From: Clostridia bacterium
Lineage (GTDB): Bacteria > Bacillota > Clostridia > Oscillospirales > Acutalibacteraceae
DNA: 64,000 nt
Direction of reading: 5' to 3'
Assembly: GCA_017438845.1 (NCBI GenBank)
Contig: JAFRUO010000025.1
Location: forward strand, 62,001 to 126,000
Made by a program: the position numbers and the translations under genes. Below, piece by piece: positions 48,218-53,190 of this stretch (position 1 is the first letter of the stretch; each line of letters opens with the position of its first letter). The notes beneath the pieces are model-generated. The model was not told where the DNA came from and did not search any database. It was given only the letters and a program-made list of their open reading frames with translations.

Positions 48218-50737
48218 TTATTTGAATATACCCTTTTGATCCATTCTCATAATAATCGAAGCTATCTGTGCGCGGCTTGCAGTCTTTGTCGGCGCAAGCG
48301 TTCCGTCGTCGTTACCGGAAATTGCGCCCTGCTGAACTGCCCACGCCATTGCAGGAACTGCAAATGCGCTTGTGTTCTTGTAATCGCTGAATTTTGAAAG
48401 CGTTGCCGTAATGCTTCCGACCGCAGGCTCATTTTTATATCTGTAAAGAATAACGGCTATCTGCTCACGGGTTATGTTGTCGCCAACGCCGAAGTTGCCG
48501 TTGTCATAGCCTGCGATTATGTTTTTGTCAACCGCCCAGTTAACAGCTGCCGCATAGTATGCGCCCTTCTTTACATCCTTTAGCTTGCTTGTTGTATTCT
48601 GATACTTTGAAAGGTCGGCTTTTGCAATGTTTGCAAGAATTACAACGAAGTCCTGACGCTTGAGGTTGTCGTTAGGTCCGAAATTGCCGTTCTGGTAACC
48701 CGACATATAGCCCCTGAGAGCAACGTACTTAACTGCGTCATAGTACCATGAGCCTTCCTTAACATCCGGGAAGCCCTTGTAGCTTTCGGTCAGCGAGGGT
48801 ATCGCTTCTGTCTTTGTTTTTCCGCATACCGTGCAGGTATAAGTCCTTACTCCTTTTGCGGTAACTGTCGGCTGTCTGGTTATTTTGCCTGCGTCCCAGC
48901 TGTGACCCTTTGCGGAAATATTACCGGTTTCCATAACTGCGCCGCAGATAGTGCAAACCTTCTGCCTTACGCCCTTTTCGGTACAGGTAGGCTCTGTCAC
49001 CGTTTGCCATGCCGAAGCCTTATGCGTGTGGTTAAGCTCCCACTTTGCATATAAGGTGATGTCGGCGTCCGCCGTGTATTTTGACCCTGAAGCATAGCTT
49101 ACGCCCGTGCCGTCTGCCTTTGTGTTCCAGCCCTTAAAAGTATAGTTTTCTTTTACGGGCACTGACGAGGTTATTGTTAAGTCGTCCTTATAATACTTTG
49201 TCTGTGCCGAAGGCGCACTTGTTCCGCCGTTAGCGTTGAAAGTGACTTTGTGTTCTGCAATGATAAATTTCCAACACTGATGTGCAGCACCGGTAAGCGG
49301 ATTTTGCCTGATGTTTGCTCCGTCGTTTCTGCTCTCAATTTCTAAGGCATATCCGCTGCATTTTGGAATTATGTAATAATCCGATCCCGTCGGTATAATA
49401 GCAAATTGCTGAGCCGGAGACCCGTTCGCCGTATGAAGGGCAATATTGGAATTTACTTTCGACAAACCGTCTGTAACGTCAAGCGATAGTGTGCTCGGAT
49501 TCAGATTAAACTTTTTGTAATCATGGATTATAGTATAATAGCCATTATCAAGCTTTGTGATTTTAAAGGTAAAATATTCACTGACAACATATTTACCGTT
49601 TTTCAAGTATACATTTGCGTTATTGGAGAATTCCGCATATTTCACCGGTTTATTTCCGGTAAGAATAGAATTAGCTGTTGCTTCGGTATAATCAGCAGTC
49701 AGTTGTCCGTATCTGTTTGTTCCGTTATCCGAATCGGGAAACATAGTGTAGGGATTAACAATAACATATCTACCGTCTGCAAGCGGCTGAGCAGGCTTGT
49801 AAGGGATAAAGATCCATGACTGTGCATATGAGTTATTGTTCTTGTATTGAACAATATTTGTTCCGCCGCTAACTATTCCGTCTGTGAAATCTATTGAGTA
49901 TCCGCTGTGTCTTGCCTGAATGCGGTATCCAAGCCCGCTGGCGTTTGGAGAAATCGCCCATTGCTGGTTTTTACCTCCGTTAAAGGCGGATACCCCTATA
50001 TTGGCACGTGCCGATTTGTCAATATTCCACACGTCAAGCGACATATTGGTGCCCTTTTGTTTAATATAGTAAAATCCGCCCGAATAGGTCAGCGTCCAGA
50101 TATCACATACAGGAGGGTCGCCTGAAAGAGGACCGCAAAGACTGACATTGGTTCCTGCCGCCGCAGGTACAGCTGTGCCTTCTATGTCAATATAATAAAA
50201 TGCAGACTTATCGGGACTTCCCGAATTAGCAATCAGATAGTCGCCGTCGGGGATAGTGCGGGGATAACCCGAGCTCATCTCCGTCCCCTGTTCGACAGGA
50301 GGGGTAGGGTTGCCGCTTAAATAAATATATCCATACATATCACTTTCATATGCAGGCGCCCATCCTTCATGAAACTTACCGTTGTAATTGCCCTCTAATT
50401 TGTATATTTGATTAGTAGCGCTATTGTAGTCGGTAACAAACGCGACATGACCATAATTAGAATTCCAAGACGCCTGTTTAAATACTACAATAGAGTTTGC
50501 TCTTGGTGTGCTTCCGACAGAATATCCCGCTGTCTGTGCATTAGAATACCATTGCCAAGCATTTCCCCAACTCGGCAATTCAATTCCAAGAATATCCTTT
50601 GCTTTTTGCCAAGCTGCATATGTACAATTACTGTCCATATTTCCCGGATAAGGATTAGCCATGGCAATAACGCTTGTACAATTCATTACACATATTAGCA
50701 TCACTAATGACAATACAAATGATAAACCCCTCTTCAT
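48218..50737 (-). CDS. Secreted cell-wall protein: CHAP hydrolase, ricin-type lectin, InlB-like repeat and SLH domains
   Basis: 839 aa, RBS AGGAGGAGA. Signal peptide (1-27), CHAP amidase/endopeptidase with Cys38 (SNCTYAAW) and His97 (NYGHVAFVTDY), two ricin-B-like lectin regions (~160-320 and ~320-500), a Listeria-Bacteroides repeat (TFNANGGTSAPS ... KGWNTKADGTG), two CxxC-containing beta repeats, and three SLH domains (~660-839) for attachment to secondary wall polymer. It probably cuts peptidoglycan while bound to the own or a foreign wall. A structured leader with a terminator precedes it. Confidence 0.92.
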   Translation of the reverse strand: MKRGLSFVLSLVMLICVMNCTSVIAMANPYPGNMDSNCTYAAWQKAKDILGIELPSWGNAWQWYSNAQTAGYSVGSTPRANSIVVFKQASWNSNYGHVAFVTDYNSATNQIYKLEGNYNGKFHEGWAPAYESDMYGYIYLSGNPTPPVEQGTEMSSGYPRTIPDGDYLIANSGSPDKSAFYYIDIEGTAVPAAAGTNVSLCGPLSGDPPVCDIWTLTYSGGFYYIKQKGTNMSLDVWNIDKSARANIGVSAFNGGKNQQWAISPNASGLGYRIQARHSGYSIDFTDGIVSGGTNIVQYKNNNSYAQSWIFIPYKPAQPLADGRYVIVNPYTMFPDSDNGTNRYGQLTADYTEATANSILTGNKPVKYAEFSNNANVYLKNGKYVVSEYFTFKITKLDNGYYTIIHDYKKFNLNPSTLSLDVTDGLSKVNSNIALHTANGSPAQQFAIIPTGSDYYIIPKCSGYALEIESRNDGANIRQNPLTGAAHQCWKFIIAEHKVTFNANGGTSAPSAQTKYYKDDLTITSSVPVKENYTFKGWNTKADGTGVSYASGSKYTADADITLYAKWELNHTHKASAWQTVTEPTCTEKGVRQKVCTICGAVMETGNISAKGHSWDAGKITRQPTVTAKGVRTYTCTVCGKTKTEAIPSLTESYKGFPDVKEGSWYYDAVKYVALRGYMSGYQNGNFGPNDNLKRQDFVVILANIAKADLSKYQNTTSKLKDVKKGAYYAAAVNWAVDKNIIAGYDNGNFGVGDNITREQIAVILYRYKNEPAVGSITATLSKFSDYKNTSAFAVPAMAWAVQQGAISGNDDGTLAPTKTASRAQIASIIMRMDQKGIFK

Positions 50738-50940
50738 TTAATCTCCTCCTAAAAAAGCATATAAAAAAAGTGCGCAGCCGAAGCTACGCACAAAAAACAC
50801 ATAGCTCCGATTGTCGCCAAACAATGTTACATAATCGCAGATAGATGTATGCAAAATAGAGCATGCATTTTTATCATAACAGATAAAAATAGCATACACG
50901 GCTATCTGCTGAGTATTATTTAATAACATTATTTGGCTTT
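50738..50940 (-). ncRNA. Structured 5' leader with intrinsic terminator (attenuator or riboswitch candidate)
   Basis: About 200 nt between the promoter and the CHAP gene. A long stem pairs 50892-50908 (minus strand CAGATAGCCGTGTATGC) with 50838-50852 (GCATACATCTATCTG) and encloses an ATTTTTATC/GATAAAAAT hairpin. Just before the RBS is GTGCGTAGC TTCG GCTGCGCAC plus a T-run (50762-50791), a strong terminator. It does not match the c-di-GMP or c-di-AMP riboswitch sequences I know. Confidence 0.5.
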
Positions 50941-50943
50941 ACT

Positions 50944-50972
50944 ATTTTACCATTATAAAGTGAAATAGTCAA
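50944..50972 (-). promoter_or_regulatory. Promoter of the CHAP/SLH gene
   Basis: Minus strand TTGACT (50967-50972), 17-bp spacer, TAAAAT (50944-50949), giving a ~200-nt leader. Confidence 0.75.
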
Positions 50973-50976
50973 CAAG

Positions 50977-51003
50977 AAAGACCTCGATTGCCCGAGGTCT
51001 TTG
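50977..51003. terminator. Hairpin, probable terminator
   Basis: AAGACCTCG and CGAGGTCTT stem followed by TTGTT on the plus strand, overlapping the upstream side of the CHAP promoter. Confidence 0.5.
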
Positions 51004-51152
51004 TTATGTCGGTCGACCGATTTTTTTCTGCTGCCAACCGCCGCCCGTGCTGCATAAAAAATCCAAGTTAAAACATAGTATTCAAAAAGCTTGATTTTAC
51101 TTGGTTTTGCGTGCTTTTATTATAGCAAATATTGTGTCCTTATGTCAAATTC

Positions 51153-51182
51153 TTGACTTGAACTTTTCTTTGGTGCTACAAT
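51153..51182 (+). promoter_or_regulatory. Promoter of the PAQR gene
   Basis: TTGACT (51153-51158), 18-bp spacer, TACAAT (51177-51182), 44 nt before the ATG. Confidence 0.7.
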
Positions 51183-51226
51183 AAAACAAATCGAAGTCTT
51201 ATTCTTGCTTACAGGACAGTTTTATT

Positions 51227-51892
51227 ATGAAATCATGGGAATCCGTTTCATTACCGGAGTACACAAAAAAGGAAGAAACTCTTAATATTATTACTCACGC
51301 CGCAGGGCTTGTTATCAGCGCCTGTATTCTCGCCTTCTGTCTTGTTCCTGCTATTGTGAGCCGTGATACGATTCGCATTGTATGTGCTTCGCTGTACCTT
51401 TTCGGAACAACGGTAATGTTCGTAACCTCGGTTATCTATCACGCCGCAACCAATCCCGACAGAAAGAAGCTGCTTCGGGTCATCGACCATTGCACGGTAT
51501 TCTTTTCGGTTGCCGGCACGGTTACGGGCTGTGTTCCCGTTGTGTATGACAGAGTCGGAAAGCCTCAGGCAATTCTTATGCTTTCGGTCGCTTGGCTCGG
51601 AGTGACAACGGGCTTGCTGCTCACATTGTTCATGTTTGAAAAGACAAAGGCTATACGGATGTGCCTTTACATAGGCACGGCACTTGTCTGCGCCATTGTC
51701 GGAGCGAAGGCATATACGCTTCTTCCCGTCGGAGCATTTCTCTGCTTCCTCATTGGCAGCTCTTCACTTTTGCTCGGAGCCGTCTTTCTGCGAATCGGAA
51801 GGACGAATCGGTACTTCCACGCAGTCTTTCATATATGCATTGACATAGGCCTTGCCGTGTATTTTATCGGTATTTCAAAATATTGCTTTTAA
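51227..51892 (+). CDS. Hemolysin III / PAQR-family membrane protein
   Basis: 221 aa, seven hydrophobic helices. Family residues: SVIYHAATN, RVIDHCTVF and the C-terminal FHAVFHICIDIGL with the metal-binding His pair. Bacterial members are thought to be membrane hydrolases or lipid-homeostasis proteins; the haemolysin name is historical. Confidence 0.9.
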   Translation: MKSWESVSLPEYTKKEETLNIITHAAGLVISACILAFCLVPAIVSRDTIRIVCASLYLFGTTVMFVTSVIYHAATNPDRKKLLRVIDHCTVFFSVAGTVTGCVPVVYDRVGKPQAILMLSVAWLGVTTGLLLTLFMFEKTKAIRMCLYIGTALVCAIVGAKAYTLLPVGAFLCFLIGSSSLLLGAVFLRIGRTNRYFHAVFHICIDIGLAVYFIGISKYCF

Positions 51893-53141: not shown

Positions 53142-53158
53142 CGAAATAAAAGCACAAA

Positions 53159-53190
53159 CCCTGAGGATTATACTCCTCAGGGTAATTATT
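53159..53190 (+). terminator. Terminator of the hydrolase operon
   Basis: CCCTGAGGA and TCCTCAGGG stem followed by T-rich sequence. Confidence 0.75.

Follow-up and report, generated by a model that had tools for sequence, protein, structure and literature searches.

What stands between the promoter and the coding sequence of the gene 50737-48218, and does it decide whether that gene is expressed? Within the window (the whole stretch of DNA that was analysed, 64,000 nt), the locus is encoded by the minus strand. The gene starts with an ATG at 50737 and encodes a protein of 839 amino acids with CHAP, ricin-lectin, Flg_new and SLH domains and an export-like N-terminus, as expected from the CHAP/SLH wall protein recognized in a first-pass annotation of this DNA. 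That annotation had also described a good promoter, a long bipartite stem and a strong terminator just upstream of the ribosome-binding site. All three were recovered in our analysis.

A structured leader between promoter and gene

The promoter (50972-50944) reads TTGACT-17-TAAAAT and is TG-extended. Six nt separate its -10 element from the start of a long stem, P1, with which a leader RNA of 175 nt begins (50937-50763). The leader folded to -65 kcal/mol, compared with -37.2 ± 4.1 kcal/mol for 200 dinucleotide shuffles, none of which was as low (z = -6.8). The z score was still -6.7 in dinucleotide shuffles without the terminator. Together with matches to a covariance model, this fold assigns the leader to the attenuator family described below.

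In the predicted fold, P1 is built from two helices, one lower and one upper, and includes an AU-rich inner hairpin as well as a bulge on one side. Its 5′ arm (50937-50923) begins at the presumed transcription start, and its outer pairs co-vary in the family; the 3′ arm (50835-50816) is likewise supported by the fold and by family co-variation. The 5′ side of P1 carries the motif AAUA (50920-50917, nt 18-21 of the window copy). Three strands lie between the arms: W (GUAUGCUAUUUUUAUC, 50897-50882); S (GAUAAAAAUGCAUGCUCU, 50875-50858), which takes up the 3′ half of the inner hairpin and the bulge; and D (GCAUAC, 50852-50847). P1 is followed by the linker GACAAU (50815-50810), for which the commonest pattern in the family is RRCAR, and then by strands T (CGGAGCUAUGUGUUUUUU, 50809-50792) and X (GUGCGUAGCUUC, 50791-50780). 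According to pairing energies and column counts, T can take either S or X as its partner. S, which complements T, is the proposed anti-antiterminator, and X serves both as the 5′ arm of the terminator and as the 3′ arm of an antiterminator.

The intrinsic terminator (50791-50763) has a stem of 9 bp (50791-50770) and then 7 U. Only 25 nt separate its U-run from the ATG, and a Shine-Dalgarno sequence (AGGAGGAG, 50750-50743) lies in this interval. The promoter at 50972-50944 could therefore drive the gene solely via read-through. A terminator belonging to an unrelated transcript would have refuted the first-pass annotation; at this distance from the ATG it is part of the leader's own transcript.

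Two other structures were seen in the window. Just upstream of the leader promoter, 51148-50980 on the minus strand holds a consensus-perfect promoter (TTGACA-18-TATAAT with TG) and then about 139 nt, ended by a strong hairpin at 50999-50980. It is possible that this unit is a small RNA or an insulator. The upstream region 51150-50975 was not conserved: in a search of 59 genomes, a single match appeared besides the own genome, and it was short and weak. At 53158-53183, between converging ORFs, there is a strong two-way terminator-like hairpin of 10 bp with U-runs on both strands.

Distribution of the leader

A BLAST search with the leader located it, promoter included, at six places in its own genome. 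The other copies precede genes for an SLH protein, a BspA-type LRR protein, a collagen-repeat protein and an EcoRI-type adenine methylase (Pfam), and the sixth copy is truncated by a contig end 85 nt downstream. Because unrelated genes follow the other copies, the link to nucleotides or wall precursors raised in the first-pass annotation is not favoured. Lack of conservation in relatives would also have counted against that annotation; the leader was conserved. A DNA search of relatives matched 29 of 98 genomes, own included. A covariance model (R1) built from 22 leaders had matches in 19 of the 39 genomes of the genus and in at least 98 of the 391 genomes of the class (56 of 223 genera). When 398 genomes were drawn from the phylum, R1 matched the own genome only and none of the 397 others. 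For the class and the phylum, the filters were stricter and no more than seven candidates per genome were scored; the class figure is thus a lower bound and the phylum result less sensitive. In 20 genomes that were rescored with more candidates, and that had been chosen mostly for their many matches, there were 8-27 copies per genome.

An exact pattern of the core was found in 54 stretches of named records, all from uncultured organisms or MAG bins. Their titles name Clostridia, Clostridiales/Eubacteriales, Ruminococcaceae, Ruminococcus, Oscillospiraceae, Clostridiaceae, Eubacterium or Bacillota, and the source, where the title gives one, is mostly animal gut. These 54 loci vary less in T and X since the pattern fixes much of both strands.

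The promoter is also conserved. Of 189 copies, 180 have a -10 element ahead of P1, 151 of them at exactly 6 nt from its first base, and 151 of the 180 also carry a -35 element. This spacing indicates that promoter and RNA travel together and that P1 starts at the presumed start site.

Some copies stand in tandem, two or three in a row (L174, L176, L178, L181, L188, L189, L191, L201, L106, L130, L128 and others). Inspected by eye, later tandem members were preceded by promoter-like sequence, and some had unrelated S, T and X strands. The second members of L174 and L176 had very different S, T and X strands, yet both pairings were kept (also by eye). In a subtype B (L020, L021, L025, L026, L027, L029, L033, L054), S lies in a hairpin of its own, GAAUUUG..CAAAUUC in most; T is close to GGAGUUUGCGUUUUU, and S:T is very strong (-17 to -21 kcal/mol). 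In the leader as such, strand T may bear some resemblance to a CRISPR repeat. Four contigs of genome G059 (L170-L173) and one of the own genome (L005) end no more than about 90 nt after a leader, as if repeated sequence followed.

IMG/VR gave no match to one exact pattern, which is a narrow test, and plasmids gave no match. Among phages there was a single partial blastn match, which proved to be a full leader (119 bits; L150, MT835845.1) before a lipoprotein-like gene. This record was deposited as a bacteriophage, but its other ORFs look by eye like bacterial chromosome genes. From these results, of which the IMG/VR one is narrow, we rejected a phage or plasmid origin; the phage label is probably misassigned.

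Competing pairings are supported by co-variation

RNAalifold, applied to 22 leaders, chose S:T and the terminator unprompted. For the further comparisons we used 189 of 191 distinct leaders; the other two were dropped, as their S and T could not be located. In these 189 copies, pairing within the own leader was stronger than cross pairing between leaders for P1 (-39.6 versus -17.8 kcal/mol), for S:T (-15.2 versus -12.9) and for T:X (-16.1 versus -13.8), and none of 2000 permutations matched the observed value in any of the three cases. A sample of 110 of the 189 leaders gave z scores of -10.5 for S:T and -10.6 for T:X, whereas six of seven control strand pairings stayed within |z| 1.4. The remaining control, the first 20 nt with X, was weak (z = -2.3; 26 of 2000 permutations). 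As permutations and shuffles break relatedness, the significance is somewhat overstated.

A fully paired partner for the first 8 nt of P1 was present in 111 of the 122 type A copies, compared with 425 of 2218 cross pairings; the seven type B copies among the 129 were excluded. In the columns of P1, which were not in the model, 69 double-change cells were counted against 23.7 after shuffling, and pairing was 96.6% against 80.3%. The S:T columns had 39 double-change cells against 14.6, although alignment A4 was fitted to S:T and this count leans towards it. The T:X columns, again not in the model, had 16 against 6.7 (95.1% paired against 93.5%). As for pairs with any double change, there were four for S:T, little above shuffles (reached by 81 of 500), and four for T:X, not above shuffles (246 of 500).

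In four genomes, cross pairing among the copies of one genome was compared with cross pairing between genomes; it did not exceed the latter for S:T in any of the four, nor for T:X in three of them. This implies that each leader is tuned to itself. It gives no support to a common trans-acting pairing RNA, which we had considered and rejected.

The many dispersed copies and their hairpin shape would also fit a mobile repeat of the MITE kind, in which inverted arms merely mimic RNA structure. However, the arms vary between copies and still pair within each copy. In a mobile repeat the sequences at the ends would be preserved, so the differing arms argue against one. The promoter spacing is kept as well, and T:X and S:T co-vary. 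We regard this explanation as hardly credible.

Two features were taken as criteria of an attenuator: an intrinsic terminator between the promoter and the ribosome-binding site of the downstream gene, and an antiterminator that excludes this terminator. Both were met, the second by T:X, which is kept by co-variation. The first-pass annotation had left the choice between riboswitch and attenuator. The attenuator is supported by the exclusive hairpins and their co-variation in 189 copies, while a small-molecule ligand has been neither shown nor excluded. Overall, the leader very likely belongs to a new family of cis-acting transcription attenuators, the unit of which is a promoter plus an RNA of about 175 nt. 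No transcript, read-through or ligand data exist. The genome-wide repetition and the dual pairing of the strand 5′ of the terminator had both been missed at first; the observation is larger than was thought.

Genes downstream of the leaders

In 120 of the 182 copies with enough DNA, a start codon preceded by a Shine-Dalgarno sequence was found within 70 nt, which gave 119 distinct genes. By a simple signal-peptide rule, 77 of the 119 were positive compared with 38 of 188 control ORFs (Fisher's exact test, P = 5 × 10^-15), the controls being taken solely from the 54 core-pattern loci. The Pfam scan covered 81 of 82 gene references (L080 was dropped for its doubtful frame) and found 64 families. 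The BspA-type LRR_5 was the commonest, in 19 proteins, followed by CHAP (4), collagen (3) and DUF6273 (3); zinc ribbons, ricin lectin, HTH, EcoRI methylase, subtilase and others occurred in one to three each. This breadth argues against a metabolite of a single pathway.

Accessory genes were also seen after leaders. Pfam identified a piece of a HicA-type toxin (L195), an EcoRI-type methylase (L006) and MazE/MraZ-like pieces (L197); L182 looked similar to the last by eye. A small-peptide leader was considered as well, since open frames run through the leader in some copies, and was set aside because the shared residues follow from the conserved bases.

The remaining 62 of the 182 copies had no such start within 70 nt. 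This would be expected if the copies were stand-alone small RNAs acting in trans, merely located before other genes, and the promoter and terminator that each RNA owns, like the promoter-like sequence seen by eye before second and third tandem members, would suit such genes. But the starts that do exist cluster at a median of 19 nt past the terminator (quartiles 17-22), and S:T and T:X are leader-specific, with no better cross pairing within genomes for S:T in all four genomes and for T:X in three of the four. It is thus quite improbable that the copies are trans-acting RNAs.

Folding order and energetics

Equilibrium folding of successive prefixes of the window leader predicted S as the early partner of the first six bases of W, and D as the later one. 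W:S pairing was 0.99 at lengths of 80-95 nt. From 100 nt on, and thus ahead of the synthesis of T at nt 129, it was replaced by W:D (0.83-0.89); in these computations D displaces S from W upon closure of P1. Over 189 leaders, the mean pairing of S fell from 0.75 to 0.46 as P1 closed. The drop was 0.3 or more in only 89 of the 189, and a rise that large occurred in one.

The mean energies were -15.2 kcal/mol for the S:T duplex, -14.0 for the terminator hairpin and -11.6 for the antiterminator hairpin. S:T, a pseudoknot, lies outside what the folding program is able to score. With S:T left aside, the terminator was on average 2.3 kcal/mol more stable than the antiterminator, and the antiterminator was the more stable of the two in 32 of 189 leaders. 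As the terminator is already more stable without S:T, little help may be required for termination, and the direction of regulation is undecided.

The two hairpins were within 3 kcal/mol of each other in 114 of 189 copies. A passive attenuator without any sensor might exploit such a balance, either for a fixed low read-through or for cell-to-cell variation of surface proteins, and its targets are indeed surface and accessory genes. Fixed read-through would not, however, require the conservation of AAUA and the linker, nor a maintained third strand S. We consider a passive device unlikely.

Conserved motifs and possible regulators

If the attenuator has a sensor, its conserved bases may mark the site. 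AATA occurred within nt 9-32 in 151 of 189 copies, whereas 66 were expected from shuffles; in 117 of the 151 it lay at nt 13-15, the commonest start (nt 18 in the window copy). Among 153 motif-bearing copies in one set of folds, 77 had all bases of AAUA unpaired. AAUA and the RRCAR linker are conserved, yet the pairings do not explain them; both are candidate receptor sites.

In a ligand-binding riboswitch, P1 and AAUA would form a small-molecule aptamer that fixes S as free or hidden, and the rest would be the expression platform. The excess and position of AAUA, the common linker and the many copies per genome are compatible with this. The conserved unpaired bases are few for an aptamer, however; AAUA was wholly unpaired in about half of those folds, the downstream genes share no pathway, and Rfam gives no match. 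Such a riboswitch appears rather unlikely. Rfam riboswitches with intrinsic terminators do resemble the leader in being 5′ leaders with a structured upstream domain and a terminator/antiterminator platform; they differ in that here there is no class match, few conserved unpaired bases and no metabolic theme.

At gathering score, Rfam 15 had no match in the 64-kb window, in line with the earlier remark that no known class was evident, and searching 20 related loci yielded one tRNA only, outside the leader. With a lax threshold there were 12 matches in 50650-51250 (best E 0.02) and seven in seven related loci, all below the gathering scores, and these were discarded. The T-box model, part of the Rfam library, had no gathering-score match in the window or the 20 loci. 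T-box leaders are likewise long, choose between terminator and antiterminator and occur in several copies per genome; here, in contrast, Rfam finds no match and the scanned genes, taken together, are not concerned with amino acids or tRNA.

A protein-controlled attenuator, in which an unknown RNA-binding protein acts on the P1 motif in a PyrR-like mode, is possible although doubtful. The long helix and its short conserved motif would suit a binding site for a protein, and the copies might together make up a single regulon, but the candidates that we searched for failed. LoaP was above the curated cut-off in none of the 39 genomes of the genus; matches below it were present in 35 of the 39 and also in 13 of 14 control genomes. 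CAT_RBD (LicT/SacY) was absent from all 39. ANTAR matched in 34 of the 39, but four leader-bearing genomes had no ANTAR match: G017 (97% complete), G030 (96%), G028 (74%) and G015 (77%). ANTAR is therefore not needed. Systems of the LoaP, ANTAR and LicT type share with the leader a hairpin element before a terminator; they differ by these same results.

PyrR-type attenuators are the pyr operon leaders of Bacillus, where PyrR acts on the anti-antiterminator. They and the leader have in common the order anti-antiterminator, antiterminator, terminator, mutually exclusive pairing and a terminator before the gene. In our family, unlike PyrR-type leaders, the proposed anti-antiterminator strand is located in a bulge within a long stem and has to form a pseudoknot in order to pair; the genes are many and unrelated, no regulator has been identified and there is no Rfam match.

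No description of the leader was found in searches of open-access PMC papers, as far as titles and the openings of abstracts reveal, and it is possible that an unnamed entry exists in the supplementary tables of PMC8040213. The family is real, widespread and apparently undescribed; the last point rests on Rfam and the open-access literature only.

A proposed model of attenuation by strand displacement

For this new family of attenuators we propose a mechanism that is well supported at the level of its pairing logic. The competing pairings rest on co-variation and the folding order is computed from the sequence; the pseudoknot in the RNA, the read-through and the signal are inferred. To judge from the promoter spacing, transcription would begin at the first base of P1. 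S would pair first with W. When the 3′ arm of P1 emerges, D may displace S from W and leave it in the bulge, as in the prefix folds. Since P1 closure frees S and S:T is energetically strong, S should take T as soon as it emerges, forming the putative pseudoknot and letting X form the terminator, and the gene would be off. If S were withheld, or S:T broken, T would pair with X in the antiterminator, no terminator would form and the polymerase would read into the gene.

The signal most likely acts on P1, because AAUA and the RRCAR linker are conserved without being explained by the pairings. Most likely it reports the general state of the cell, because the downstream genes share an exported or accessory character rather than a pathway. 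Only tentatively, as a possibility short of probable, we suggest a new class of riboregulator: one global signal (a second messenger, stress or the state of elongation) would be read via the AAUA of P1, and strand displacement and the pseudoknot would set the expression of an extensive regulon, made up of surface and accessory genes, in gut Clostridia that have not been cultured.

As a regulatory RNA, the attenuator family would be very common, present in at least 98 of 391 sampled genomes of the class and in up to 27 copies per genome, and it is missing from Rfam 15. Strand competition leads to exact predictions for mutations, which makes the mechanism directly testable, and the copy number makes the search for a shared signal practical. 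The family would offer a handle on surface-protein switching in the Clostridia of the rumen and hindgut.
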